DNA of 47,819 nt, taken from assembly GCA_017391465.1 (NCBI GenBank), contig JAFOYH010000015.1, positions 1-47,819 on the forward strand, written 5' to 3'. The notes beneath the pieces are model-generated. The model was given only the letters and a program-made list of their open reading frames with translations. It had not been told where the DNA came from and ran no database searches. Made by a program: the position numbers and the translations under genes. How positions within the stretch are numbered: position 1 is the stretch's first letter; every line of letters begins with the position of its first letter. Positions 14,292-26,886 of the stretch are shown here, in pieces. The stretch comes from Lachnospiraceae bacterium (GTDB lineage Bacteria; Bacillota_A; Clostridia; Lachnospirales; Lachnospiraceae).

Positions 14292-15494
14292 ATGGGAATG
14301 CCGATTGTAACATTAAAAAAAGGTGAAGGCCGTACGATTAAAGCCGGCGGAGCATGGATTTTTGATAATGAGATTGATACGATTTTAGGAACTTATGAGA
14401 ATGGCAATGATGTGATCGTTCGTGATTTTGACGGTTATCCGATGGGACGCGGATTTATTAACACTGCGTCAAAGATTCGTATCCGTATGATGACACGCAA
14501 TGTGGACCAGGAGATTGACGAGGCATTTATTCGCATGCGTGTAAAAAATGCCTGGGAATACCGTAAGAAAGTGATTGACACAAACTGCTGTCGTGTGATT
14601 TTTGGAGAAGCGGATTTTCTTCCGGGCATTGTCGTGGATAAGTTTTCTGATGTGCTGGTTGTTCAGTCGCTGGCTCTTGGAATTGATAAATATAAAATGA
14701 TAATCATCGAAGCTTTAAAAGATTTTATGGCAGAAGATGGCATGCCAATCCGTGGTGTCTATGAGCGAAGCGATGCCAAAGTTCGTAAACAGGAAGGCAT
14801 GGAACTTTACAAAGGCTTTATTGGCGAACCATTTGATACGAAAGTTCCGATTGTGGAGAATGGCGTGAAGTATCTGGTCGATGTAAAAGATGGTCAAAAG
14901 ACCGGATTTTTCCTGGATCAGAAAGAAAACCGCAAAGCGATAGCTAATTTGAGTAAAGGTTATGAAGTTTTGGATTGCTTTACACATACGGGATCCTTTG
15001 CACTCAATGCAGCTTATGGCGGCGCATGTCGTGTAACAGGTGTGGATGCTTCTGAACTTGCAGTCAATCAGGCAAGGGAGAATGCCCGTTTAAATGGTGT
15101 TGATGATTTTGTGGATTTTGTCTGTGCCGATGTGTTTGAATATTTGCCTGCTCTTGAAAAAGAAGGTAAGAAATTTGATCTGGTTGTTTTGGATCCTCCG
15201 GCATTTACCAAATCAAGAAACTCGATTAAAAATGCAGTGAAGGGCTATCGTGAGATTAACATCCGTGGTCTTAAGCTGGTCAAAGATGGCGGTTATCTGG
15301 CAACCTGTTCCTGTTCCCATTTTATGGATTTTGAACGATTTACAGAAACCATCAAACAGGCGGCACGCAGTGCCCACAAACGTCTGCGTCAGGTAGAATT
15401 CAAGACACAGGCACCGGATCATCCAATTCTCTGGGCAGCGGATGAATCTTATTATCTGAAATTTTACATTTTCCAGGTGTGTGACGAAAAGTAG
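14292..15494 (+). CDS. Class I SAM-dependent rRNA methyltransferase, RlmI-like (COG1092)
   Basis: 400 residues. An N-terminal PUA domain (residues ~1-80; TLKKGEGRTIKAGGAWIFDNEI) is followed by a linker domain and a Rossmann methyltransferase with the SAM loop LDCFTHTGSFALNAA (near 235) and the catalytic-region motif LDPPAFTKSR (near 300); a late SCSCSHFMD segment carries the cysteines. E. coli RlmI methylates C1962 of 23S rRNA, and this protein has the same architecture, so 23S m5C formation is likely. GAGGGAAAG precedes the ATG. folC follows with no gap, so they share a transcript. Confidence 0.88.
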   Translation: MGMPIVTLKKGEGRTIKAGGAWIFDNEIDTILGTYENGNDVIVRDFDGYPMGRGFINTASKIRIRMMTRNVDQEIDEAFIRMRVKNAWEYRKKVIDTNCCRVIFGEADFLPGIVVDKFSDVLVVQSLALGIDKYKMIIIEALKDFMAEDGMPIRGVYERSDAKVRKQEGMELYKGFIGEPFDTKVPIVENGVKYLVDVKDGQKTGFFLDQKENRKAIANLSKGYEVLDCFTHTGSFALNAAYGGACRVTGVDASELAVNQARENARLNGVDDFVDFVCADVFEYLPALEKEGKKFDLVVLDPPAFTKSRNSIKNAVKGYREINIRGLKLVKDGGYLATCSCSHFMDFERFTETIKQAARSAHKRLRQVEFKTQAPDHPILWAADESYYLKFYIFQVCDEK

Positions 15495-15503
15495 GTGGCA
15501 GCA

Positions 15504-16805
15504 GTGAAGATGATGACATATGATGAAACGTTTGCGTGGATTCATCAAATGGAACAATTTGGAATCCATTTAGGATTAACCCGAATGGAAGAACTTTTAA
15601 AACGTATGGGACGGCCGGACAGGTGTTTGAAGATTATTCATGTGGCCGGAACCAATGGTAAAGGCTCTGTATGTACATTTATTGCCTCGATTCTCGGTGC
15701 AGCCGGTTATTCAGTGGGACGTTACATTTCGCCCACACTGGTGGAATATCGGGAACGTATTCAGATGGATGGACAGATGATTGAGGAGGAAGATCTTTCT
15801 GAAGGCATGAGTCTAGTGCGGGAGATCTGCGAAGGCATGGCGATAGATGGTCTGGAAGTTCCGACCATCTTTGAAATCGAAACCGCTGTTGCTTTCTGGT
15901 ATTTTAAAAAGCAATCCTGTGATTATGTTGTGCTGGAAGTTGGCATGGGTGGACGACTGGACTCGACGAATGTCATTGAGCATCCTGTGTTAAATGTCAT
16001 TGCGTCCATTTCTATGGACCATATGGTCCAGCTTGGTGATACATTATGCGCTATTGCCACTGAAAAAGCAGGAATCATTAAAGAAGGCACACCGGTCGTT
16101 GTGTATCCTCAGGCAGAGGAAGCACTTGAGGTGATCCGTCAGGTATGTGAAGAGAAACATACCCATCCGGTGATTGCAGACTGGAGTCGGCTGGTTCTTA
16201 AAGAACGCAGATTGTTTGAAGAGTCAATGATTTTAAAAGCCTGTCAGACATTTGATTATAAAGATTATAAAGACTGTCAGATTCATCTGGCAGGAACGTA
16301 CCAGATTCAGAATGCGTGTCTGGCTATAGAAGCCATAGAAGCCCTGAAACCTGAAAAGATGGAAAGAGCTTATATCTATAAAGGTCTTTTCGAGGCACAG
16401 TGGCCGGGAAGATTTGAATGTCTTTCCAGAGAACCCATCGTATTTATTGACGGTGCACACAATCCGGAAGGTGCAGAAAGTCTTCGGGAGAGTGTGGAAG
16501 CATATTTTCCGGATACAAAACGGACACTGGTGATGGGGGTATTTAAAGATAAAGATTATGATCAGATTTTAAGGATCATGTCCGAGGTTTCAGATACACT
16601 GATCACATTTACACCGAAACATCCGAGAGGTCTTGAAAGCAGTGCTTTGGCTTCTCAGGCGACCCATTATTTTGATGATGTGGAGGATGGTCAGACAGCC
16701 CGGAAGGCATTGGAAAGGGCAAAAATAAAAACAGATCCTGGCGGTTTGATTCTGATTTTTGGTTCATTATCAACGATTTCAACATTTTACGAGATATTTA
16801 GTTAG
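15504..16805 (+). CDS. folC: Folylpolyglutamate synthase / dihydrofolate synthase
   Basis: Mur-ligase-type enzyme of about 433 residues. GTNGKGSVCTFIASIL is the ATP loop; VLEVGMGGRLDSTN and FIDGAHNPEG are the other family signatures. It adds glutamate to dihydropteroate or folates, keeping them in the cell. Start is uncertain: three candidates exist, GTG 15495 (directly after the rlmI-like stop), GTG 15504 (five bases after AGGTGG; chosen) and ATG 15510. It opens the folate cluster, 19 bases before folE. Confidence 0.92.
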   Translation: MKMMTYDETFAWIHQMEQFGIHLGLTRMEELLKRMGRPDRCLKIIHVAGTNGKGSVCTFIASILGAAGYSVGRYISPTLVEYRERIQMDGQMIEEEDLSEGMSLVREICEGMAIDGLEVPTIFEIETAVAFWYFKKQSCDYVVLEVGMGGRLDSTNVIEHPVLNVIASISMDHMVQLGDTLCAIATEKAGIIKEGTPVVVYPQAEEALEVIRQVCEEKHTHPVIADWSRLVLKERRLFEESMILKACQTFDYKDYKDCQIHLAGTYQIQNACLAIEAIEALKPEKMERAYIYKGLFEAQWPGRFECLSREPIVFIDGAHNPEGAESLRESVEAYFPDTKRTLVMGVFKDKDYDQILRIMSEVSDTLITFTPKHPRGLESSALASQATHYFDDVEDGQTARKALERAKIKTDPGGLILIFGSLSTISTFYEIFS

Positions 16806-16824: not shown

Positions 16825-17379
16825 ATGATCGATGAGAAAAAAGTACAAGAAGGTATACGGCTGATTCTTGAAGGAATCGGGGAAGACGTGAACCGTCCGG
16901 GCCTTATTGAGACACCTTTGCGTATTGCGAATATGTATAAAGAGATTTACGGCGGCATGGATGAAGATGTGTCTGTTCATTTGCACAAAACATTTCCTGC
17001 AATCAATAATGAGATCGTATTAGAAAAAGACATTACATTTTATTCTACATGTGAACATCATTTGCTTCCGTTTTATGGAAAAGCACATATTGCCTACATA
17101 CCGGATAATCAGGTGGTTGGATTAAGCAAACTGGCACGTACAGTGGATGTGTATGCAAGACGTCCTCAGATTCAGGAACAGATGACGGCCCAGATTGGAG
17201 ATGCCATTATGGAACATTTGAAACCAAAGGGCGTTATGGTCATTGTTCAGGCGGAGCATATGTGTATGACAATGCGTGGTATTAAAAAACCGGGAAGTCA
17301 GACATTAACCTATGTTTGCAGAGGTGCTTTTGAGGATAATCCTGCATTGCAGCAGATGGTTTTCAATATGGTGAAATAA
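16825..17379 (+). CDS. folE: GTP cyclohydrolase I
   Basis: 184 residues, normal size. Zinc ligands are visible in [10 protein letters not shown] (Cys and His) and in [10 protein letters not shown] (Cys); the latter also carries the GTP-binding KKPGSQT follow-on. It turns GTP into dihydroneopterin triphosphate, the first step of folate synthesis. GAAGGAGCGG precedes the ATG. Its stop overlaps the start of the HD-domain gene by one base. Confidence 0.96.
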
Positions 17380-17900
17380 TGAAGAAAGATTTAAGTTATA
17401 ACCAGATTCCGGAGAACATGGAACGGGTACAGCGTATTCTTAAACATCCGGAATTTGAAACATCTATGAGTGCCATTCGTGCACTTGAAAAAGAAAGAAT
17501 TTTCTGTTGTCACGGTATAGCGCATTTGCTGGACGTGGCACGGATTGCTTATATAATGAGTTTGGAAGAAGAGGCAGGATTAAAAAAAGACATGATCTAT
17601 GCGGCCGGTTTACTGCATGATGTGGGAAAATATCTTCAGTACATGAATGGGACGCCACATCATATCAGCAGCGCAGAGATGGGTGAGCGTATTTTGGCAG
17701 ATGCAGGGTATGACGCAGATGAAATTACTGTTATCAGCTATGCCATAAGAAGTCACAGAGACCAAAAAGCGGCCGGAGAAGAGCGTTTAAGCTGGATTCT
17801 TTATCGTGCAGATAAGTTGTCCAGAGCCTGTTATGCCTGCCCGGCTTCTTCAGAGTGCAACTGGAGTGAAGAAAAAAAGACAACGGGAGTGATTTCATGA
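17379..17900 (+). CDS. HD-domain phosphohydrolase in the folate operon
   Basis: 173 residues. An HD fold: His49 in HGIAHLLDVARIAY, the His80-Asp81 pair in LLHDVGKYLQ, HHISSAEMGE and SHRDQ downstream, then the closing aspartate in YRADKLSR. The C-terminal tail has CYACPASSECNW, a cysteine cluster that could bind metal. HD proteins of this type remove phosphate from nucleotides. It overlaps folE by one base and folP by four. The operon has no Nudix or alkaline-phosphatase gene for dihydroneopterin triphosphate, so it is a candidate for that step; this is inference only. Confidence 0.85.
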   Translation: MKKDLSYNQIPENMERVQRILKHPEFETSMSAIRALEKERIFCCHGIAHLLDVARIAYIMSLEEEAGLKKDMIYAAGLLHDVGKYLQYMNGTPHHISSAEMGERILADAGYDADEITVISYAIRSHRDQKAAGEERLSWILYRADKLSRACYACPASSECNWSEEKKTTGVIS

Positions 17901-18724
17901 AGCAAGAGTTGTGTATTGGTGGAGAGGTATTTGCGCGCAGTGGTCATACCTATATTATGGGGATTTTAAATGTGACACCGGATTCTTTTTCCGATGGCGG
18001 CAGATATGACTCTATAGATGAAGCATTTAAACATGCGCGTCAGATGGTGATGGATGGCGCGGATTTAATTGATATTGGGGGTGAATCCACACGTCCCGGA
18101 CATGTGCCGGTTTCAGACGAAGAAGAAATTAAGCGCATTGTTCCTGTCATCGAGATGATCAAACGACATCTTGACGTACCGATTTCTGTGGATACTTATA
18201 AGCCGGCGGTGGCAAAAGCGGCGATCGAAGCCGGAGCAGATATGATCAATGATATCTGGGGATTGAAAAAAGATCCTGAGATGGCGAAAATCATTGCTGA
18301 AACCGGCGTAACCTGCTGCCTGATGCATAATCGTGAGGCTGCAGATTATGAAGATCTGATTCCGGACTGCATTGCGGATTTAAAAGAAACCCTTCGAATT
18401 GCGGAAGACGCAGGAATTGACAGGGACAAGATTGTATTGGATCCGGGGATTGGATTTGGAAAAACCTATGAACAAAATCTTCTGGTTTTAAAACATTTGA
18501 ATGAATTTCATGCATTAGGATATCCATTACTTCTTGGGACATCCAGAAAGTCGGTAATCGGACTGACTTTGGATCTTCCGACGGATGAACGTCTGGAAGG
18601 AACGTTGGCAACAACGGTTATGGGAGTTATGGCGGGAATGAGTTTTGTCCGTGTCCATGACGTGGTGGCCAATGAGCGTGCTATTACCATGACCGAAGCC
18701 GTATTGAAGATTCAGGGGGAATAA
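17897..18724 (+). CDS. folP: Dihydropteroate synthase
   Basis: 275 residues, TIM-barrel pterin-binding enzyme. MGILNVTPDSFSDGG, DIGGESTRPG and DPGIGFGKTYEQN are the standard motifs, and SVDTYKPAVA and TSRKSVIG complete the pterin pocket. It joins p-aminobenzoate to dihydropterin diphosphate and is the sulfonamide target. ATGA overlap with the HD gene suggests coupled translation. Confidence 0.96.
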   Translation: MKQELCIGGEVFARSGHTYIMGILNVTPDSFSDGGRYDSIDEAFKHARQMVMDGADLIDIGGESTRPGHVPVSDEEEIKRIVPVIEMIKRHLDVPISVDTYKPAVAKAAIEAGADMINDIWGLKKDPEMAKIIAETGVTCCLMHNREAADYEDLIPDCIADLKETLRIAEDAGIDRDKIVLDPGIGFGKTYEQNLLVLKHLNEFHALGYPLLLGTSRKSVIGLTLDLPTDERLEGTLATTVMGVMAGMSFVRVHDVVANERAITMTEAVLKIQGE

Positions 18725-18726
18725 GT

Positions 18727-19563
18727 TTGGGACACATAGGGATTAGAGATTTGGAAGTCTATGCCTATCATGGCGTTTATCCGGAAGAACAGACAAACGG
18801 TCAGAAGTTTTATGTTTCTGCAGATCTTTATGTTGATACATGGGAAGCAGAGCATACCGATGATCTGGAGGCCTCTGTAAATTACGGAACAGTTTGTGAA
18901 CGAATCACGGCATATATGACCAATGAAAAACACATGCTTATTGAACGGGCAGCAGGAAAAATATGTGAGAATCTTTTGAGAGATTTTCCAAAGATTGAAA
19001 AAATTCGATTAAAATTATATAAACCGGAAGCACCGATTCCATTGCCATTCGGAACAGTGTTTGTGGAAGTGGAACGTTCCTGGGAGGATGTCTATATCGC
19101 TGTGGGAAGCAATATGGGTGACCGCAGAGCGTTGATTGAAAAGGCTATCGAGATGCTTTCGGAAACCGAAGGTATTGAAGTGAAGAAAGTATCTGCTCTG
19201 ATCGAGACAGAACCCTATGGCTATACGGATCAGGACATTTTCTTAAATGGCTGTCTGCATATGAAAACATGGCTTCCACCGGAAGTGTTATTGAAACGTA
19301 TGCAGGAGATTGAACTTCTTTTACACAGAGAACGAAAGATTCACTGGGGACCAAGAACCATTGATCTGGATATGATCTTATATGGCGATCAGGTTATTCA
19401 TACAAAAGATTTAACCGTACCTCATCCGGATATGGTCAACCGACAGTTTGTCCTTGAACCGTTGGATGAGATCGGAGGTCATGTCTGGCATCCGGTAGAA
19501 AATAAAACGGTTCATCAGTTATGGGAAACATTAAAGAAAAAGGAGGCACAGGAAAATGATTGA
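18727..19563 (+). CDS. folBK: Bifunctional dihydroneopterin aldolase / HPPK (FolB-FolK fusion)
   Basis: 278 residues with two domains. Residues ~1-118 are dihydroneopterin aldolase (IRDLEVYAYHGVYPEEQ ... EKIRLKLYKPEAPIP). Residues ~122-278 are the pyrophosphokinase (YIAVGSNMGDRRALIEKAI; RKIHWGPRTIDLDMILYGD; VPHPDM). Together they turn dihydroneopterin into 6-hydroxymethyl-dihydropterin diphosphate, the substrate of FolP. The fusion is common in Clostridia. It starts with TTG two bases after the folP stop, with AGGGGGA about six bases upstream. Confidence 0.93.
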   Translation: MGHIGIRDLEVYAYHGVYPEEQTNGQKFYVSADLYVDTWEAEHTDDLEASVNYGTVCERITAYMTNEKHMLIERAAGKICENLLRDFPKIEKIRLKLYKPEAPIPLPFGTVFVEVERSWEDVYIAVGSNMGDRRALIEKAIEMLSETEGIEVKKVSALIETEPYGYTDQDIFLNGCLHMKTWLPPEVLLKRMQEIELLLHRERKIHWGPRTIDLDMILYGDQVIHTKDLTVPHPDMVNRQFVLEPLDEIGGHVWHPVENKTVHQLWETLKKKEAQEND

Positions 19564-20551
19564 ATTGCACGTACATTTAGCAGGATCTTTAAAAGCAGCA
19601 ACAATTATTGAATATGCGAAGGAGAGAAATGTACCTCTACCAACTTACAATGCCTCTGAATTGGAACATTATCTGGAAGCACCAGATCACTGTGAAGAAA
19701 AGGCGGACTTTTACGAACTTTGTGAAATGACGGACTGGGTACTTCAGGAGCGTCGTTCCATTCGTCGTGCCATGATTGAACTTGTTAAAGAACTGGATTC
19801 ACAGGGCGTTATGTATGCAGAAATCCGTTTTTCTCCATCGGAATGTACACTGGGAGGACTTCGTCAGGATGATGCGGTGGCTGCGGCCATCGAAGGACTG
19901 GAACGTGGTATGCAGGAAAGCAGACAGATTAAGGCAAATCTTGTTCTTTGTATTATTGAAAAAATGAATGAACACGAAGCTTTTGAAACGGTGGTTGCCG
20001 CAAAGAAATATCTCCATCAGGGCGTTTGTGGTCTGGATCTTCTTTTGAATGAATCTCTTTACGAAACAGAAATCTTTGACTGGCTCTTTGACCTGATCAA
20101 AGAAGAACATATTCCGTTTACGGTGCACTGTGGACAGTATAATACGGACAGCATGAAAAAGGCCATTCGTTATGGAGCAGCCCGGATTAGTCAGGGGCTT
20201 CATATTCAGGATGATGAAGAATTGTTAAATGAGATTCGTGACCGACATGTTATTGTTGAATGTTGTCCGGCAAGTAATCTTAAATTGGGTTCAGTAGATG
20301 ACTATCGCAGACATCCAATTCGTAAATTGTTTGATTTGGGTGTGCCGGTATGTGTATGTACCGATCGTTTAAGAGTATCCGGTATTACTTTGGAAAAAGA
20401 ATATCGCAATCTTATGCGCTATCAGGATTTTACACCACATGAGATTTATCAGATGAATATCAATGCCATCCAGGGGGCATTTTTGACACAGATGGAAAAA
20501 GATAAGTTGTTATTTAAACTATACGAGGCGAATAAAAACCTTATAGACTAA
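19556..20551 (+). CDS. Adenosine-deaminase-like metallohydrolase with altered active site
   Basis: 331 residues aligned end to end with adenosine deaminases: IELHVHLAGSLKAATI (His5, His7), YAEIRFSP and NINAIQGAFL. Metal ligands His5, His7, His191 and Asp270 are kept. However, the canonical HAGE is HCGQ (catalytic Glu becomes Gln194), the VGHG histidine is Gln213 (ISQGLH), TDDP is TDRL (second Asp becomes Arg271) and the substrate-binding glycine of DLAGDE is Leu164. Ordinary adenosine deamination is therefore doubtful. It overlaps the folB-folK end by eight bases and has AAAGGAGG upstream, so it belongs to the folate operon. It may act on a pterin or other purine-like compound, or be non-catalytic; no sequence proof. 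Confidence 0.8.
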   Translation: MIELHVHLAGSLKAATIIEYAKERNVPLPTYNASELEHYLEAPDHCEEKADFYELCEMTDWVLQERRSIRRAMIELVKELDSQGVMYAEIRFSPSECTLGGLRQDDAVAAAIEGLERGMQESRQIKANLVLCIIEKMNEHEAFETVVAAKKYLHQGVCGLDLLLNESLYETEIFDWLFDLIKEEHIPFTVHCGQYNTDSMKKAIRYGAARISQGLHIQDDEELLNEIRDRHVIVECCPASNLKLGSVDDYRRHPIRKLFDLGVPVCVCTDRLRVSGITLEKEYRNLMRYQDFTPHEIYQMNINAIQGAFLTQMEKDKLLFKLYEANKNLID

Positions 20552-20568: not shown

Positions 20569-21717
20569 ATGGAAGACTTGGGTAAATTACGAGATCAGAT
20601 TGACAGCATTGACGACCAGATTGTCAAACTTTTTGAAGAGCGCATGAAGGTTTCTGAAGGTGTAGCTGCTTACAAACGCAGTGTGGGAAAGCCGGTTCTT
20701 GATAAAGAACGTGAAAAAAATAAAATTGAAAAAGTAACTGCAAAAACAACGAATGCATTTAACCGACAGGGTGTGGAATCTCTGTTTAACCAGATTATGG
20801 CCATCAGCCGTATGCTTCAGTACCAGAGACTTGCCAGTGAACGGACAGATCTTGAAGGCTTTTATGAAGGTGAGATGAAAGTAACATCGGAGACAAAGGT
20901 GGTTTATGCCGGTGTTCCGGGGGCATATGCGGAAAGTGCCATGTTGAACTATTTTGGTACAGAGATTGATGGTTTTAATGTGGAAACCTTTGGGGATGCC
21001 ATGGAGGCTGTACATAGTGGACTTGCAGATTATGCCGTGCTTCCGATTGAAAATTCATCCACAGGCAGTGTCAATGATGTTTATGATCTTTTATCGGATT
21101 ATGATAATCACATTGTGGGTGAGACCATGGTAAAAATTGAGCATGCTCTGCTTGCTCTTCCGGGAAGTTCATTGAATCAGATTCGTACGGTATATTCCCA
21201 TCCGCAGGGACTGATGCAGTGCAGCCGCTTTCTGGATGAAAAGAGAGGCTGGCAGCAGGTGAGTCTTCAGAATACAGCCGCTTCGGCAAAACGTGTGGTG
21301 GATGATGGCGATCTTTCTCAGGCGGCCATTGCCAGCAAACAGGCGGCAAAAAATTATGGACTGATTGTATTAAAAGATCACTTAAATGACCTGGATAATA
21401 ATTCTACACGCTTTGTAGTTATTAGTCATAAAAAAATGTTTGAAACCGATGCCAATACTATCAGCATTTGTTTTGAAACCTTGCATCAGAGCGGCAGCCT
21501 TTACAGTGTTCTCAGTCACTTTATTTTTAATGGGCTGAATATGACCCGTATTGAATCCCGTCCGATTCACGGAAAGCCATGGCAGTATCAGTTTTTCGTG
21601 GATTTTACCGGAAATCTTAAAGAACAGGCTGTAAAGAATGCCCTTCACGGTATTCAGTCTGAAACAGAAAGTTTTCGAATTCTTGGCAACTATAGAGGAG
21701 CAGAAACATTATGTTAA
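20569..21717 (+). CDS. pheA: Bifunctional chorismate mutase / prephenate dehydratase
   Basis: 382 residues. Residues ~1-90 are an AroQ chorismate mutase (LGKLRDQIDSIDDQIVKLFEERM). Residues ~110-285 are prephenate dehydratase (VVYAGVPGAYAESA; LPIENSSTGSV; the catalytic NNSTRFVV). An ACT domain with the IESRP phenylalanine-binding motif ends the protein. It converts chorismate to phenylpyruvate and is expected to be feedback-inhibited by phenylalanine. CAAGGAG precedes the ATG. It overlaps the next gene by seven bases. Confidence 0.95.
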   Translation: MEDLGKLRDQIDSIDDQIVKLFEERMKVSEGVAAYKRSVGKPVLDKEREKNKIEKVTAKTTNAFNRQGVESLFNQIMAISRMLQYQRLASERTDLEGFYEGEMKVTSETKVVYAGVPGAYAESAMLNYFGTEIDGFNVETFGDAMEAVHSGLADYAVLPIENSSTGSVNDVYDLLSDYDNHIVGETMVKIEHALLALPGSSLNQIRTVYSHPQGLMQCSRFLDEKRGWQQVSLQNTAASAKRVVDDGDLSQAAIASKQAAKNYGLIVLKDHLNDLDNNSTRFVVISHKKMFETDANTISICFETLHQSGSLYSVLSHFIFNGLNMTRIESRPIHGKPWQYQFFVDFTGNLKEQAVKNALHGIQSETESFRILGNYRGAETLC

Positions 21718-23009
21718 AAATACGTGTACATGAATTGATTTTATATCGCAATTTTGAAGAGAACATTTTTTTAGATATGGCCTATGTGGCAAATAATTAT
21801 TTAAATGAAAACTGTGATAAAGAAGATTTGATCGATAAGCTTTATAAATGTATCAACGAAATCGTGACTATTGCAAGAGATCATGGATTTAATGGGAATC
21901 TCTGGCATGGTTATCTGACTTATCTTTTGACAACCAACGAGAATGCATTCAGTATGTCCTGTGAAAAGAAAGGTGCCATTGAAGGCAGTATCAACGAGCT
22001 GGCGCTTCATGATCTTCGCATTTTTAAAGAAGCGTATGATGTGGACTGGGATGATATTGAAAAAGTTCTCGGTGTCCATTTTATCCGAATGATTCGTGCT
22101 TTCCATAATCCGGACAAATTGGGTGTTATTTACAGTCAGAGTCTTCGTGAACGCATCGATGTGTTGAATGTGGAACTGGCAAATGCAGATAATATTCATG
22201 TGATGTATGATGTTCTGACAGATTTTTACAAAGATTATGGTGTTGGCAAGTTTGGGCTTCACCGTGCTTTTAAGATTGTCAGTGATGGTCAGACACCAGA
22301 GATTGCACCGATTACACGAACAGAAAAAGTTGTTCTCGATGATATTGTTGGTTATGAAATTCAGAAGAAAAAACTTCGTGATAATACAGAAGCTTTTATA
22401 AAAGGCAAAAAAGCAAATAATGCGCTGCTGTATGGTGACAGTGGAACCGGAAAGTCCACCAGTATTAAAGCAATTTTAAATGAATATTATAAAGACGGGC
22501 TTCGCATGATTGAAGTATATAAACATCAGTTTAAAGATATTTCCAATGTGATTGCTCAAATTAAAAACAGAAATTATAAATATATTCTTTATATGGACGA
22601 TCTTTCTTTTGAAGAGTTTGAGATTGAATATAAATATCTCAAAGCTATCATTGAAGGCGGTCTTGAAACGAAACCGGATAATGTGGTTATCTATGCCACA
22701 TCCAATCGACGTCATTTGATCCGTGAAACATGGGGAGACCGTAAACAGGCACCGGATGATGTTCACGGCAATGATTCTATGCAGGAAAAATTGTCCCTTG
22801 CGACTCGATTTGGCGAAAGTATCTATTATGGCAAGCCAAATCAGAAAGAGTATTTAAACATTGCCAGAGAACTGGCGAAACGTTACGGAATTACCATGTC
22901 GGAAGAAATGATTGAAAAAGAAGCAGTGAAGTGGGAACTTGGTCACGGCGGTCGTTCCGGACGTACAGCTCAGCAGTTTATCAATCACTTAGTCGGCATT
23001 GCAGAATAA
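21711..23009 (+). CDS. DUF815-family AAA-type ATPase
   Basis: 432 residues. The N-terminal half is helical and family-specific; residues ~200-432 form an AAA-like ATPase with Walker A (GDSGTGKST, 242-250), a Walker B-like YILYMDDLSFEE and sensor YATSNRRHL. DUF815 proteins are annotated as predicted ATPases without known function. It overlaps pheA by seven bases; ppx starts 47 bases on. Its protein-remodelling or nucleic-acid role is not indicated by context. Confidence 0.88.
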   Translation: MLKIRVHELILYRNFEENIFLDMAYVANNYLNENCDKEDLIDKLYKCINEIVTIARDHGFNGNLWHGYLTYLLTTNENAFSMSCEKKGAIEGSINELALHDLRIFKEAYDVDWDDIEKVLGVHFIRMIRAFHNPDKLGVIYSQSLRERIDVLNVELANADNIHVMYDVLTDFYKDYGVGKFGLHRAFKIVSDGQTPEIAPITRTEKVVLDDIVGYEIQKKKLRDNTEAFIKGKKANNALLYGDSGTGKSTSIKAILNEYYKDGLRMIEVYKHQFKDISNVIAQIKNRNYKYILYMDDLSFEEFEIEYKYLKAIIEGGLETKPDNVVIYATSNRRHLIRETWGDRKQAPDDVHGNDSMQEKLSLATRFGESIYYGKPNQKEYLNIARELAKRYGITMSEEMIEKEAVKWELGHGGRSGRTAQQFINHLVGIAE

Positions 23010-23056
23010 ACGAAGTCTTTGGTATTTCAGATAATAGAAAGAAGAGGTTTTTGTCC

Positions 23057-24589
23057 ATGCAGGTGTTAGCAGCAATTGATGTGGGTTCCAGCGAAGTGGC
23101 TATGAAAATCTATCAGTTTTCAAAACGTACCGGTGTTCAGGAAGTGGAACATGTACGTTCGATTGTGGAGCTTGGAGCCGATACGTTTAAAACAGGGTTT
23201 TTAAGCTTTGAGGCCGTACAGGAATTATGTGGCGTGCTTAAAGGATTTAAAGCAAAGTTAAAAGAATACCGTATTGACACGTATGTGGCTTATGCGGGCA
23301 GTGCCTTGCGTGAAGCATCCAACAGGGATCTTGTTTTGGATCAGATTCGGATTCAGACAGACATTCAGGTACAGATTATCGGCAATGCTCAGATGCGTTT
23401 CCTTGTTTTACAGTCATTAGCAGGAACCATGCGTCCGTTTGAACGTCTGATTGAAGAGGGCGTTGCCATTGTTGATCTTTCTTCGGGGAGTCTTCAGGTT
23501 TCGGTGTATGAAGATGGCGCCCTTGTTTTATCTCAGAATCTGAAACTGGGATCCCTGCGTGTACGCGAAATTTTAGCGGATATGGAGCAGCAGACTACAT
23601 CTTTTGTGAGTGTCATGGAAGATTATATTGGCAACGATCTTCGCACATTGCAGCGCCTTGTCATCAAAGATATTAAGGTGAAGCACATTATTGTTCTCGG
23701 CGAAGAAATTGCAACGGTTTTAAATGCAGTGAATGCCTCAAAAAACAGAGAAAGTTTTACGGCATCCCAATTTGAAAAGTTTTATTTTAAATTAATGAAA
23801 AGTCCGGAAGATGTGTTGACAAAGAAATACAGTATTCCTTATGAGACTGCCACAGTTTTAAAACCATCCATGATTATATTCAAAAATCTTGTGGAGATGC
23901 TCGGCGGCGAAACCGTGTGGGCGTCAAATGTGGGGTTATGTGACGGAATTCTGGCGGACTATTTAAGAAGTCATCGTCTGGCGTCGAGCCAGCATGATTT
24001 TACAGAAGATATGATTTCTATGGTATATCAGATGGCAGTTCACTATGAAAGTGATATGGAACACACCAAAAATGTGACTCAGCTTTCTTTGGCGATATTT
24101 GACGGTGTGCGTAAAATTTCTGGTTTAACGCCAAGGGATCGTCTGCTTTTACAGATGGCCGGCATTCTTCATGATTGCGGCAAATTCGTCAATATGATGT
24201 ATGGCACGGACAACAGTTATTATTTGATTTTGAATACAGAAATTATTGGTATTTCGGAGGATGAAAAGCAGATTATTGCCAATACGATTCGGTTTAATTC
24301 CAGTGTGGATGTGCCGGACTATTCTATGGTGGCCAGACAGATGAGTCATGTGAATTATGTGCGTATGCTTAAAATGGCAGCTATTTTAGGTCTGGCCAAT
24401 GGTATGGACCGAAGTCATCAGCAACGTATTCAGGATGTGCGTGTGACTGTTTCCGGATCCGAACTTAAGGTCATAGCCAATACCATTTATGATATTACCC
24501 TGGAACAGGGAATGATAGAAAATCGTTCCCATTTCTTTGAACAGATTTATGGATTAAAACCAGTGCTTCGGCAGAAACGGAGGGCTTAA
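23057..24589 (+). CDS. ppx: Ppx/GppA-family exopolyphosphatase with HD domain
   Basis: About 510 residues from the ATG at 23057, which follows GAAGAGG by nine bases and gives the typical VLAAIDVGSSEVAMKI beginning (ASKHA ATPase fold). VAIVDLSSGSLQVSVYEDG is the second phosphate loop. The C-terminal third has an HD domain (EHTKNVTQLSLAIFD; AGILHDCGKF). The reading frame is open back to 22931, inside the DUF815 gene, but those 42 codons are not family-like. It should hydrolyse polyphosphate or pppGpp. It stands two bases before ppk1: synthesis and breakdown of polyphosphate in one operon. Confidence 0.9.
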   Translation: MQVLAAIDVGSSEVAMKIYQFSKRTGVQEVEHVRSIVELGADTFKTGFLSFEAVQELCGVLKGFKAKLKEYRIDTYVAYAGSALREASNRDLVLDQIRIQTDIQVQIIGNAQMRFLVLQSLAGTMRPFERLIEEGVAIVDLSSGSLQVSVYEDGALVLSQNLKLGSLRVREILADMEQQTTSFVSVMEDYIGNDLRTLQRLVIKDIKVKHIIVLGEEIATVLNAVNASKNRESFTASQFEKFYFKLMKSPEDVLTKKYSIPYETATVLKPSMIIFKNLVEMLGGETVWASNVGLCDGILADYLRSHRLASSQHDFTEDMISMVYQMAVHYESDMEHTKNVTQLSLAIFDGVRKISGLTPRDRLLLQMAGILHDCGKFVNMMYGTDNSYYLILNTEIIGISEDEKQIIANTIRFNSSVDVPDYSMVARQMSHVNYVRMLKMAAILGLANGMDRSHQQRIQDVRVTVSGSELKVIANTIYDITLEQGMIENRSHFFEQIYGLKPVLRQKRRA

Positions 24590-24591
24590 AG

Positions 24592-26727
24592 ATGATCGCT
24601 GTGAACAAACCAGAATATTTTACAAATCGAGAACTCAGTTGGCTGGATTTTAATTATCGTGTCCTTGCTGAAGCACGTGATAAGACGATCCCGTTATTTG
24701 AACGTATTAAGTTTTTGAGTATTACATCCTCGAATTTGGATGAGTTTTTTATGATTCGTGTAGCATCCTTAAAAGATATGGTCCATGCCAAATATCGTAA
24801 ACCGGATATCGCCGGGATGACTCCACAGGAACAGTTGGATGCGATTAGTAAGAAGACCCATGCGTTTGTAAGTACCCAATATACAACTTACAATCGTTCG
24901 TTAAAACCGTTGCTTAAACAGAATCAACTGAACATCATTGATTCTTATGAAGATTTGGACAAGATTCAAAAAGAATATGTGGAACAGTATTTTATGCAGG
25001 ATGTTTATCCTGTATTAACACCAATGGCGGTGGATTCATCCCGACCATTTCCGTTGATTCGCAATAAATCTCTGAATATTGGAGCATTGATTTCAAATAA
25101 AGAGGATGAGTCTGAATATGATTTTGCCACAGTTCAGGTGCCATCCATGCTTCCGCGTTTTATAGAGATTCCATCCAAAACAAAAGAAGAAAAGACATTG
25201 ATTTTATTGGAACAGGTCATTGAGATGAACATTCAGAAACTGTTTCTTAATTATAAGATTATCTGTGCTTATCCGTATCGAATCATGCGTAATGCAGATT
25301 TAAGCATTGATGAAGAAGAAGCAGAAGATCTTTTAAAAGAGATCGAGAAACAGTTAAAACAAAGACAGTGGGGAGAGGCAATCCGATTGGAAGTGGAAGA
25401 CGGTATGGATAAGCGTCTGCTGAAAATTCTTAAAAGAGAATTGAATGTTGGTGAAGCAGAGATGTATAAGATCAGCGGACCTTTGGATTTGACATTTCTC
25501 ATGAAAGTCAATGGTCTGGATGGATATGATCATTTGAAATATCCAAAATACGAGCCGCAGCTTTCGAAAGATATACGTCCGGATGAAGATCTGTTCACCC
25601 AGATTCGCCGAAAAGATATTTTATTATTCCATCCATTTCAGAGTTTTGATACAGTGGTGGATTTTGTGCGTCAGGCAGCAAAGGACCCGGATGTCCTTGC
25701 CATTAAACAGACTCTTTATCGTGTCAGTGGTAATTCGCCGATCATTGCCTCATTGGAAGAAGCGGCAGAAAATGGCAAGCAGGTTACAGTTCTTGTTGAA
25801 TTGAAAGCCCGATTTGATGAAGAAAATAACATCATCTGGGCAAAGAAACTTGAAAAAGCCGGTTGCCATGTTATCTATGGTTTGGTAGGTTTGAAAACCC
25901 ACAGCAAAATTACGCTGGTTGTACGCCGCGAAGAAGATGGCATTCGTCGTTATGTTCATCTTGGCACAGGGAATTACAATGACAGTACAGCCAAGATGTA
26001 TACAGATATGGGAATTTTGACCTGTTCGAAACCAATTGGTGAAGATGCAACGGCTGTATTTAATATGCTTTCCGGCTATTCGGAACCTCTGGCATGGAAT
26101 AAATTATCTCTGGCACCGTTGTGGCTGCGTGATCGTTTTATTCAGTTAATCGGTCAGGAAACGCAGAATGCTAAAGAGGGACGGCCGGCCCACATCATTG
26201 CAAAGATGAACTCTCTGTGTGACAAAGATGTAATCATGGCGTTATATGAAGCGGCAGCGGCAGGTGTGAAGATTGAACTTATTATTCGCGGTATTTGCTG
26301 TTTGAAGACAGGCATTCCTGGAATCAGTGAAAATATTACGGTCAAATCCATCGTTGGAAACTTCCTTGAACATAGTCGCATTTTTTATTTTTATAATAAT
26401 GGCTGGGAAAATGTATTTATGGGCAGTGCGGACTGGATGCCAAGAAATCTGGATCGTCGTGTAGAAATTCTTTTCCCGGTAGAAGATGAGGAATGTAAGA
26501 AACAGGTGATTCATATTTTGGATATTCAGCTTCAGGACAATGTGAAGGCACATTATCTGCAGCCGGATGATTCTTATCAGAAGCCGGATAAACGTGGCAA
26601 GGTTCTTGTTTCTTCTCAGGATTATTTTTGTCAGGAGGCTTTAGAAGCTGTCAACGAAGATAAGAAAAAAGACGAAGAAAAGCGCCGTGTTTTTGAGCCA
26701 ATGTATCATAATGAAGATGAAATTTGA
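24592..26727 (+). CDS. ppk1: Polyphosphate kinase 1
   Basis: 711 residues, full-length. NRELSWLDFNYRVLAEA and SSNLDEFFMIRVA are the N-terminal signatures; IKQTLYRVSGNSPII, LKARFDEENNI and HLGTGNYND mark the catalytic core; HSRIFYFYNNG contains the autophosphorylated histidine region. It makes polyphosphate from ATP. CGGAGGG lies upstream within the ppx end. The C-terminal tail is charged (EDKKKDEEKRR). No terminator follows before the tRNA promoter. Confidence 0.95.
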   Translation: MIAVNKPEYFTNRELSWLDFNYRVLAEARDKTIPLFERIKFLSITSSNLDEFFMIRVASLKDMVHAKYRKPDIAGMTPQEQLDAISKKTHAFVSTQYTTYNRSLKPLLKQNQLNIIDSYEDLDKIQKEYVEQYFMQDVYPVLTPMAVDSSRPFPLIRNKSLNIGALISNKEDESEYDFATVQVPSMLPRFIEIPSKTKEEKTLILLEQVIEMNIQKLFLNYKIICAYPYRIMRNADLSIDEEEAEDLLKEIEKQLKQRQWGEAIRLEVEDGMDKRLLKILKRELNVGEAEMYKISGPLDLTFLMKVNGLDGYDHLKYPKYEPQLSKDIRPDEDLFTQIRRKDILLFHPFQSFDTVVDFVRQAAKDPDVLAIKQTLYRVSGNSPIIASLEEAAENGKQVTVLVELKARFDEENNIIWAKKLEKAGCHVIYGLVGLKTHSKITLVVRREEDGIRRYVHLGTGNYNDSTAKMYTDMGILTCSKPIGEDATAVFNMLSGYSEPLAWNKLSLAPLWLRDRFIQLIGQETQNAKEGRPAHIIAKMNSLCDKDVIMALYEAAAAGVKIELIIRGICCLKTGIPGISENITVKSIVGNFLEHSRIFYFYNNGWENVFMGSADWMPRNLDRRVEILFPVEDEECKKQVIHILDIQLQDNVKAHYLQPDDSYQKPDKRGKVLVSSQDYFCQEALEAVNEDKKKDEEKRRVFEPMYHNEDEI

Positions 26728-26814: not shown

Positions 26815-26886
26815 GCGCGAGTGGCTCAGTGGTGGAGTATCGCCTTGCCAAGGCGAGGGTCGCGGGTTCGAATCCCGTCTCGCGCT
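26815..26886 (+). tRNA. tRNA-Gly (anticodon GCC)
   Basis: A 72-base cloverleaf. Acceptor arms GCGCGAG / CTCGCGC, D-arm with GGCTCAGTGGTGGAG, anticodon arm TCGCC-TTGCCAA-GGCGA with anticodon GCC at 26847-26849, and T-arm CGGGTTCGAATCCCG. The 3' CCA is not encoded (CGAT follows). Own promoter and terminator. Confidence 0.97.

Follow-up and report, generated by a model that had tools for sequence, protein, structure and literature searches.

The 47,819-nt stretch of DNA from a gut Lachnospiraceae bacterium analyzed here (the window; contig JAFOYH010000015.1 of assembly GCA_017391465.1) carries, at positions 19556..20551 of the forward strand, a gene for a 331-residue protein of the adenosine deaminase (ADA) fold that, judging from its sequence, is almost certainly not an adenosine deaminase. 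It is very probable that the gene has been selected for a new function rather than left to decay. As an overall reading we tentatively propose that an ancestral ADA has been re-specialized into a zinc hydrolase acting on an anionic, perhaps pterin-type, compound, although a pseudoenzyme that binds zinc comes close to it in likelihood. The protein is a member of a known fold family and not a new kind of system. What makes it of interest is that a curated family model names it "adenosine deaminase" although the residues for that reaction have been replaced and are conserved in their new state; P0021, a 67% identical relative, is already annotated publicly as adenosine deaminase.

The open reading frame (ORF) is intact and begins with ATG. 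It matches PF00962 with 206 bits against a cut-off of 27 and the adenosine deaminase model TIGR01430 with 241 bits against a cut-off of 216.55, and it scores under the respective cut-offs of eight other NCBIfam adenosine deaminase equivalogs. An AlphaFold2 (AF2) model of the protein has a mean predicted local distance difference test score (pLDDT) of 94 and a predicted template modeling score (pTM) of 0.93. The model, its structure matches, and the sequence together place the protein in the amidohydrolase superfamily, as a (β/α)8 barrel with HxH, H, and D metal ligands, the metal itself being predicted. Three canonical ADA queries matched only this ORF in the window, and no second ADA was found there.

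Residues were mapped by alignment to the ADA chain of 1ndv, with the pocket residues W117 and H157 unaligned and left unscored. The ADA zinc ligands H15/H17/H214/D295 are retained as H5/H7/H191/D270. The HAGE motif has become HCGQ, so that the general acid E217 is Q194; the VGHG histidine, the water-activating H238, is Q213; TDDP is TDRL, with R271 in place of D296; and the substrate glycine G184 is L164. These retained ligands and four changed sites had been proposed in a first-pass annotation of the DNA and are borne out by the alignment, which adds the loss of D19, the ribose 5'-OH contact, now A9. A new basic residue, K243, aligns with ADA position 268 and lies near the pocket by sequence only. 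PMC12388660 names as crucial the contacts of D19 with the sugar hydroxyls, of G184 with N3, of E217 with N1 and N6, and of D296 with N7, and has His238 activating the water; PMC9483566 likewise describes E217 as the general acid and H238 as the base of ADA. Measured against these contacts, the mapping indicates that each of them and both catalytic residues have been lost from an intact metal site, and the alternative put forward earlier, "new chemistry or loss of catalysis", holds as worded. Position 296 is not strict by itself, as the canonical sequences used here have N rather than D in 32 of 35 and R in 0 of 35.

Relatives were collected through a protein search over 5.8 billion proteins, which gave 51 matches, and a profile search, which gave 2028 matches at E ≤ 1e-40 (the best 120 of 2028 were used); most of the sequences come from the protein searches and have no genomic context. 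A tree of 57 sequences, built without the five trait columns, separates a clade of 44 from 13 canonical sequences, and this clade has three main parts, F, C, and E. Groups were assigned from the tree, with sequences outside it placed by similarity and motif, and P0086 is counted in C though the tree places it at a distance from that group. Five partial sequences (P0030, P0038, P0039, P0087, and P0091) are retained in the counts, as are both members of two pairs in which a genome copy contains a database entry (G001 and P0021; G402 and P0054). The Frisingicoccus-type F clade (39 sequences) has Q in 30, E in 6, and H in 3 at the E217 site, Q in 35, M or I in 3, and a gap in 1 at the H238 site, and R in 31, H in 6, and a gap in 2 at the D296 site; the six that retain E217, including those of G292 and G400, have lost H238 and D296. 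The C clade (27 sequences, among them P0034, named Catenibacillus) has I, V, C, A, or G at E217 in all 27, retains H238 and G184 in 27/27, and has D296 in 25. The E clade (23 sequences) retains E217 and H238 in 23/23 and has exchanged D19 for E in 23/23. Its specificity may itself be shifted by this last change.

The relatives form a natural series, in which acid and base are both intact, the acid is lost and the base kept, the base is lost and the acid kept, or both are lost, and the order of steps from deaminase to another function is therefore open to experiment. The minimum number of changes on the tree is two for E217 and one for H238; such counts cannot alone separate gain from loss, and loss is read from the outgroup. 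The tree also flags long branches meeting, including those of the canonical copies G292can and G294can/G129can. Throughout F, C, and E the zinc ligands are near-invariant. The C-clade sequence P0085 has N at the zinc ligand Asp295, the sole case among F, C, and E sequences with a residue at that position. The Q/Q/R combination, whose conservation across Lachnospiraceae the first-pass annotation had raised as a check, is confined to one genus-level clade, with other states in the remaining F, C, and E sequences. Copies of the altered-gene clade were found in 6 of 397 genomes of the family (scores above 350 bits). Among 392 genomes sampled from the order they appeared only in G002 and G129, both already known, and a third sample of 397 genomes gave seven matches, all in already-known genomes, two of which (G019 and G177) are canonical ADAs.

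It is conceivable that the protein remains a deaminase of adenosine, or of an adenine nucleoside, through an altered mechanism. Its score over the curated TIGR01430 cut-off, its retained zinc site, and the persistence of E217 in 6/39 F sequences, G292 and G400 included, would suit such an enzyme. We consider this very improbable, since neither the contacts named in PMC12388660 (D19, G184, E217, and D296) nor the base H238 survive in the window protein. In addition, four of five members of the genus have a further ADA-family gene whose motifs are canonical, and E217 and H238 are both retained in 58/58 protein-search sequences outside the three groups, many of which are near copies of one another.

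The altered gene shows the marks of constraint. In the Frisingicoccus-type genus, that of Frisingicoccus caecimuris (G002), it is present and open in five of five species examined, so that the altered residues are not peculiar to one genome. Its ratio of nonsynonymous to synonymous substitution rates (dN/dS) is about 0.06-0.11; a finite dS was obtained for 7 of 15 pairs, most of which are close to saturation. Sequencing error and decay in a single genome are ruled out by the altered copies in relatives, the open copies across the genus, and the dN/dS values. Within a Q subclade of 18 sequences, 59-98% identical to each other, Q194, Q213, R271, Y53, C56, E96, and K243 are fixed in 18/18. For Q194, Q213, and R271 this is more than chance would give, and the first-pass view that the sites changed together is supported. 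Copies at the rlmI-pheA site are also better conserved than canonical copies from the same genome pair, at 73% versus 62% identity for G001/G002, 86% versus 71% for G292/G400, and 63% versus 53% for G294/G129.

A relaxed, slowly decaying duplicate, retained by operon position alone, is a further explanation and one to which we give very little credence. In its favor are the second, canonical ADA of 6/7 genomes and the five different residues at E217 in the C clade. Against it stand the low dN/dS, the open copies in 5/5 genus members, and the AF2 pLDDT, which likewise vindicate the first-pass description of a complete gene that is not decaying. Identity between the window and G002 is 80% for the altered gene. 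The figure for pheA is also 80%, folE (87%) and the ATPase gene (91%) are higher, and folC (63%), the HD-domain gene (62%), folP (68%), and folBK (73%) are lower. The altered gene is thus mid-range for the locus and shows no decay.

The gene closes a folate cluster, all on the forward strand. Upstream lie a gene for an RlmI-like rRNA methyltransferase (14292..15494; Pfam Methyltrans_SAM, with NF011707 below its cut-off at 283 of 712 bits), which serves as the upstream syntenic anchor, folC (15495..16805; TIGR01499 above cut-off), folE for GTP cyclohydrolase I (16825..17379; TIGR00063 above cut-off), an HD-domain protein gene (17379..17900; PF01966), folP for dihydropteroate synthase (17897..18724; TIGR01496 above cut-off), and a folB-folK fusion (folBK) for dihydroneopterin aldolase and HPPK (18727..19563; TIGR00525 and TIGR01498 above cut-off, with Pfam FolB and HPPK). 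The end of folBK overlaps the start of the ADA-like gene by 8 nt (19556..19563), giving a length to the overlap already recorded in the first-pass annotation and suggesting translational coupling. The downstream anchor is a pheA-type gene for chorismate mutase/prephenate dehydratase (20569..21717; PF00800 and PF01817), which is followed by genes for a DUF815 ATPase, a Ppx-GppA protein, and ppk. By tblastn of the window proteins, this order is matched in full in G002 and G129 and, over the portion covered, in G001, G292, G003, G400, and G294. The overlap between folBK and the ADA-like gene is 4 or 8 nt in all eight folate-cluster loci, the window included. The altered form adjoins folate genes in 8/8 loci with known context, a conserved linkage of the kind expected of a folate-pathway enzyme, and the C-clade copies seen in context (G294 and G129) also adjoin folate genes.

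Because of the overlap with folB-folK, a pterin or folate-pathway compound is suggested as the ligand, and a pterin- or folate-related role is possible, though we would not call it probable. The first-pass annotation had proposed such a role from the neighborhood, and the linkage in 8/8 loci speaks for it. Part of that support is taken away by a sister genus (G376, G070, G401, and G402), in which the order is rlmI, ADA-like gene, pheA; tblastn of the window proteins found no folate gene between rlmI and pheA in these genomes, and the window FolP query had no match in 4/4. Here the ADA-like gene is of type E, keeps E217 and H238, overlaps pheA by 8 nt in 4/4, and is the sole PF00962 match in each of the four genomes. 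Homologues of the altered form thus stay beside folate genes wherever their context is known, while these four sister-genus copies occupy the same site without a folate cluster. The sister genus makes room for an enzyme unrelated to folate, such as a hydrolase of another heterocycle or one linked to aromatic amino acids through its pheA neighbor, for which the folate adjacency would be an inherited position. The rlmI-X-pheA order without a folate cluster, with X overlapping pheA in 4/4, agrees with that explanation. We hold it to be unlikely, as the sister genus retains the ADA acid and base and the altered form adjoins folBK in all eight loci seen.

The altered state goes together with the folate cluster and likewise with a spare ADA, and genome-level Fisher tests of such associations ignore kinship. 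folP is present in all seven genomes that carry an altered copy. Six of these contain one or two additional PF00962 copies, and in every one of the six the second copy that was read shows the HAGE and GHG motifs of a canonical ADA. No second PF00962 copy was found in G003, a metagenome-assembled genome of 2.3 Mb. Third PF00962 copies, besides the altered and canonical ones, are present at G292:C33:42418-43347 and G400:C3:7164-8096. On the tree the G001 and G002 spare ADAs form one group and their counterparts in G292, G294, and G129 group elsewhere, subject to the long-branch warning. Since the spare ADAs differ between lineages, they fit a history in which other genes took over adenosine deamination more than once, which would have freed the ADA-like gene.

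In the proposed course of events, the gene is orthologous to an ancestral ADA and occupies an unchanging place in the order rlmI-[folate cluster]-X-pheA. Adenosine deaminase activity would have been dropped along the Frisingicoccus-type lineage, with a second ADA relieving the gene, and re-specialization would have followed. The four ligands H5, H7, H191, and D270 would hold one zinc, at which a metal-bound hydroxide could still form. The N1-protonating E217, the water-activating H238, and the G184, D296, and D19 that hold N3, N7, and the 5'-OH have been replaced, mostly by fixed new residues, among them the basic R271 at the D296 position; K243 is a further new basic residue, likely close to the rebuilt pocket. 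The most likely activity would be hydrolysis that depends on zinc and is directed at an anionic compound other than adenosine, D270 acting as both zinc ligand and general base. Possible roles include the removal of a pterin phosphate or the clearing of a pterin by-product. In full, the proposal would make the protein an ADA-fold zinc hydrolase that is co-translated with FolB-FolK, acts on an anionic pterin compound such as a phosphate of dihydroneopterin or some pterin by-product, and has its evolutionary intermediates alive in sister lineages; taken as a whole, this is improbable.

The minimal hydrolytic device of the amidohydrolase superfamily is a zinc-bound hydroxide together with the β-8 aspartate, and in the 331-residue protein the residues for both, the zinc ligands and the aspartate, are still present. 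These remaining residues, together with the report in PMC3962203 that mouse ADA hydrolyzed organophosphates after four mutations, lead us to favor a zinc hydrolase with an anionic substrate. An engineered organophosphate hydrolase from mouse ADA (PDB 3t1g) is among the tied best structural matches of the AF2 model, and it resembles the window protein as an ADA scaffold turned to hydrolysis other than deamination; it differs in being a designed protein. Among 62 columns at least 90% conserved in canonical ADAs, a switch to a near-fixed different residue occurred in 7/10 pocket versus 5/52 other columns (p=1.5e-4), and with the four sites of the first-pass annotation left out in 3/6 versus 5/52 (p=0.029), the 13-column pocket list having been cut from a longer one after the residues were mapped and ahead of the pocket tests. 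When only changed columns are considered, 7/13 pocket columns are invariant versus 44/169 others (p=0.038).

Alternatively, the protein may be a zinc-binding pseudoenzyme, a non-catalytic ligand sensor or scaffold that, for example, regulates or partners FolB-FolK or the canonical ADA. This is a serious but lesser possibility. The Q subclade has lost both acid and base, E217 underwent no fewer than two changes on the tree and takes any of five residues (V, I, C, A, or G) among C-clade sequences, as though an acid were dispensable, and the folBK overlap in 8/8 loci would suit a partner protein; there are precedents for inactive paralogues that activate a partner. A pure scaffold need not retain the near-invariant zinc ligands of F, C, and E, nor R271 and E96, which are fixed in 18/18 Q sequences and which we take to line the ADA pocket. 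With its conserved zinc ligands and re-fixed pocket, the site looks like a working one rather than a dead one, and we lean slightly toward a protein that is still catalytic.

Several observations weigh against a re-specialized, folate-linked hydrolase. Taken as a class, pocket columns show no significant excess of invariance over the others (7/13 versus 114/314, p=0.16). In the C clade the acid is lost with H238, G184, and mostly D296 kept, a pattern that plain loss of catalysis fits and in which one shared new chemistry is not evident. The E clade retains the gene though folP was not found in 4/4 genomes, and the folate association is confounded with the presence of a second ADA, both resting on two or three independent events. 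As the gene persists at the rlmI-pheA site where no folP was found, and the change tracks with a second ADA, a folate role is plausible yet weaker than it first appeared. Finally, the operon already has a candidate for the missing dephosphorylation of dihydroneopterin triphosphate (DHNTP) in its HD-domain protein, which sits beside folE and folP in the window and was found in 7/7 folate-cluster relatives. This protein is a stronger candidate for the DHNTP step than the ADA-like protein, because HDIG proteins are proposed as FolQ2 in folate clusters in PMC1971073.

Other known systems also bear comparison. Adenosine deaminase itself (EC 3.5.4.4; PF00962 and TIGR01430; mouse, human, and Vibrio cholerae structures) differs from the window protein at E217, H238, D19, G184, and D296. 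ADAL and N6-methyl-AMP deaminase (human 8qch and Arabidopsis 6ijm) are less similar to it than true ADAs. ADAL is a deaminase in which the catalytic acid is retained. FolQ and FolQ2, the DHNTP pyrophosphatase and its candidates, are alike in being hydrolase-like genes within a folate cluster, but FolQ is a Nudix protein and FolQ2 an HDIG protein in PMC1971073, unlike the ADA fold seen here. The same paper reports folate-pathway genes as still missing in many bacteria. Among open-licence papers, none was found on this protein or on an ADA-family pseudoenzyme in a folate operon. If the folate link is true, the gene would represent an unsuspected enzyme or regulator in the folate synthesis of gut Lachnospiraceae.

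A scan of the whole window for an RNA element controlling the operon gave a tRNA at 26815-26886 as its sole match at gathering score. Just downstream of the locus, at 21711-26727, are the genes for the DUF815 ATPase, the Ppx-GppA protein, and polyphosphate kinase, in an order common to the relatives. The longest Ppx ORF overlaps the ATPase ORF by 79 nt, and the true Ppx start may be later.
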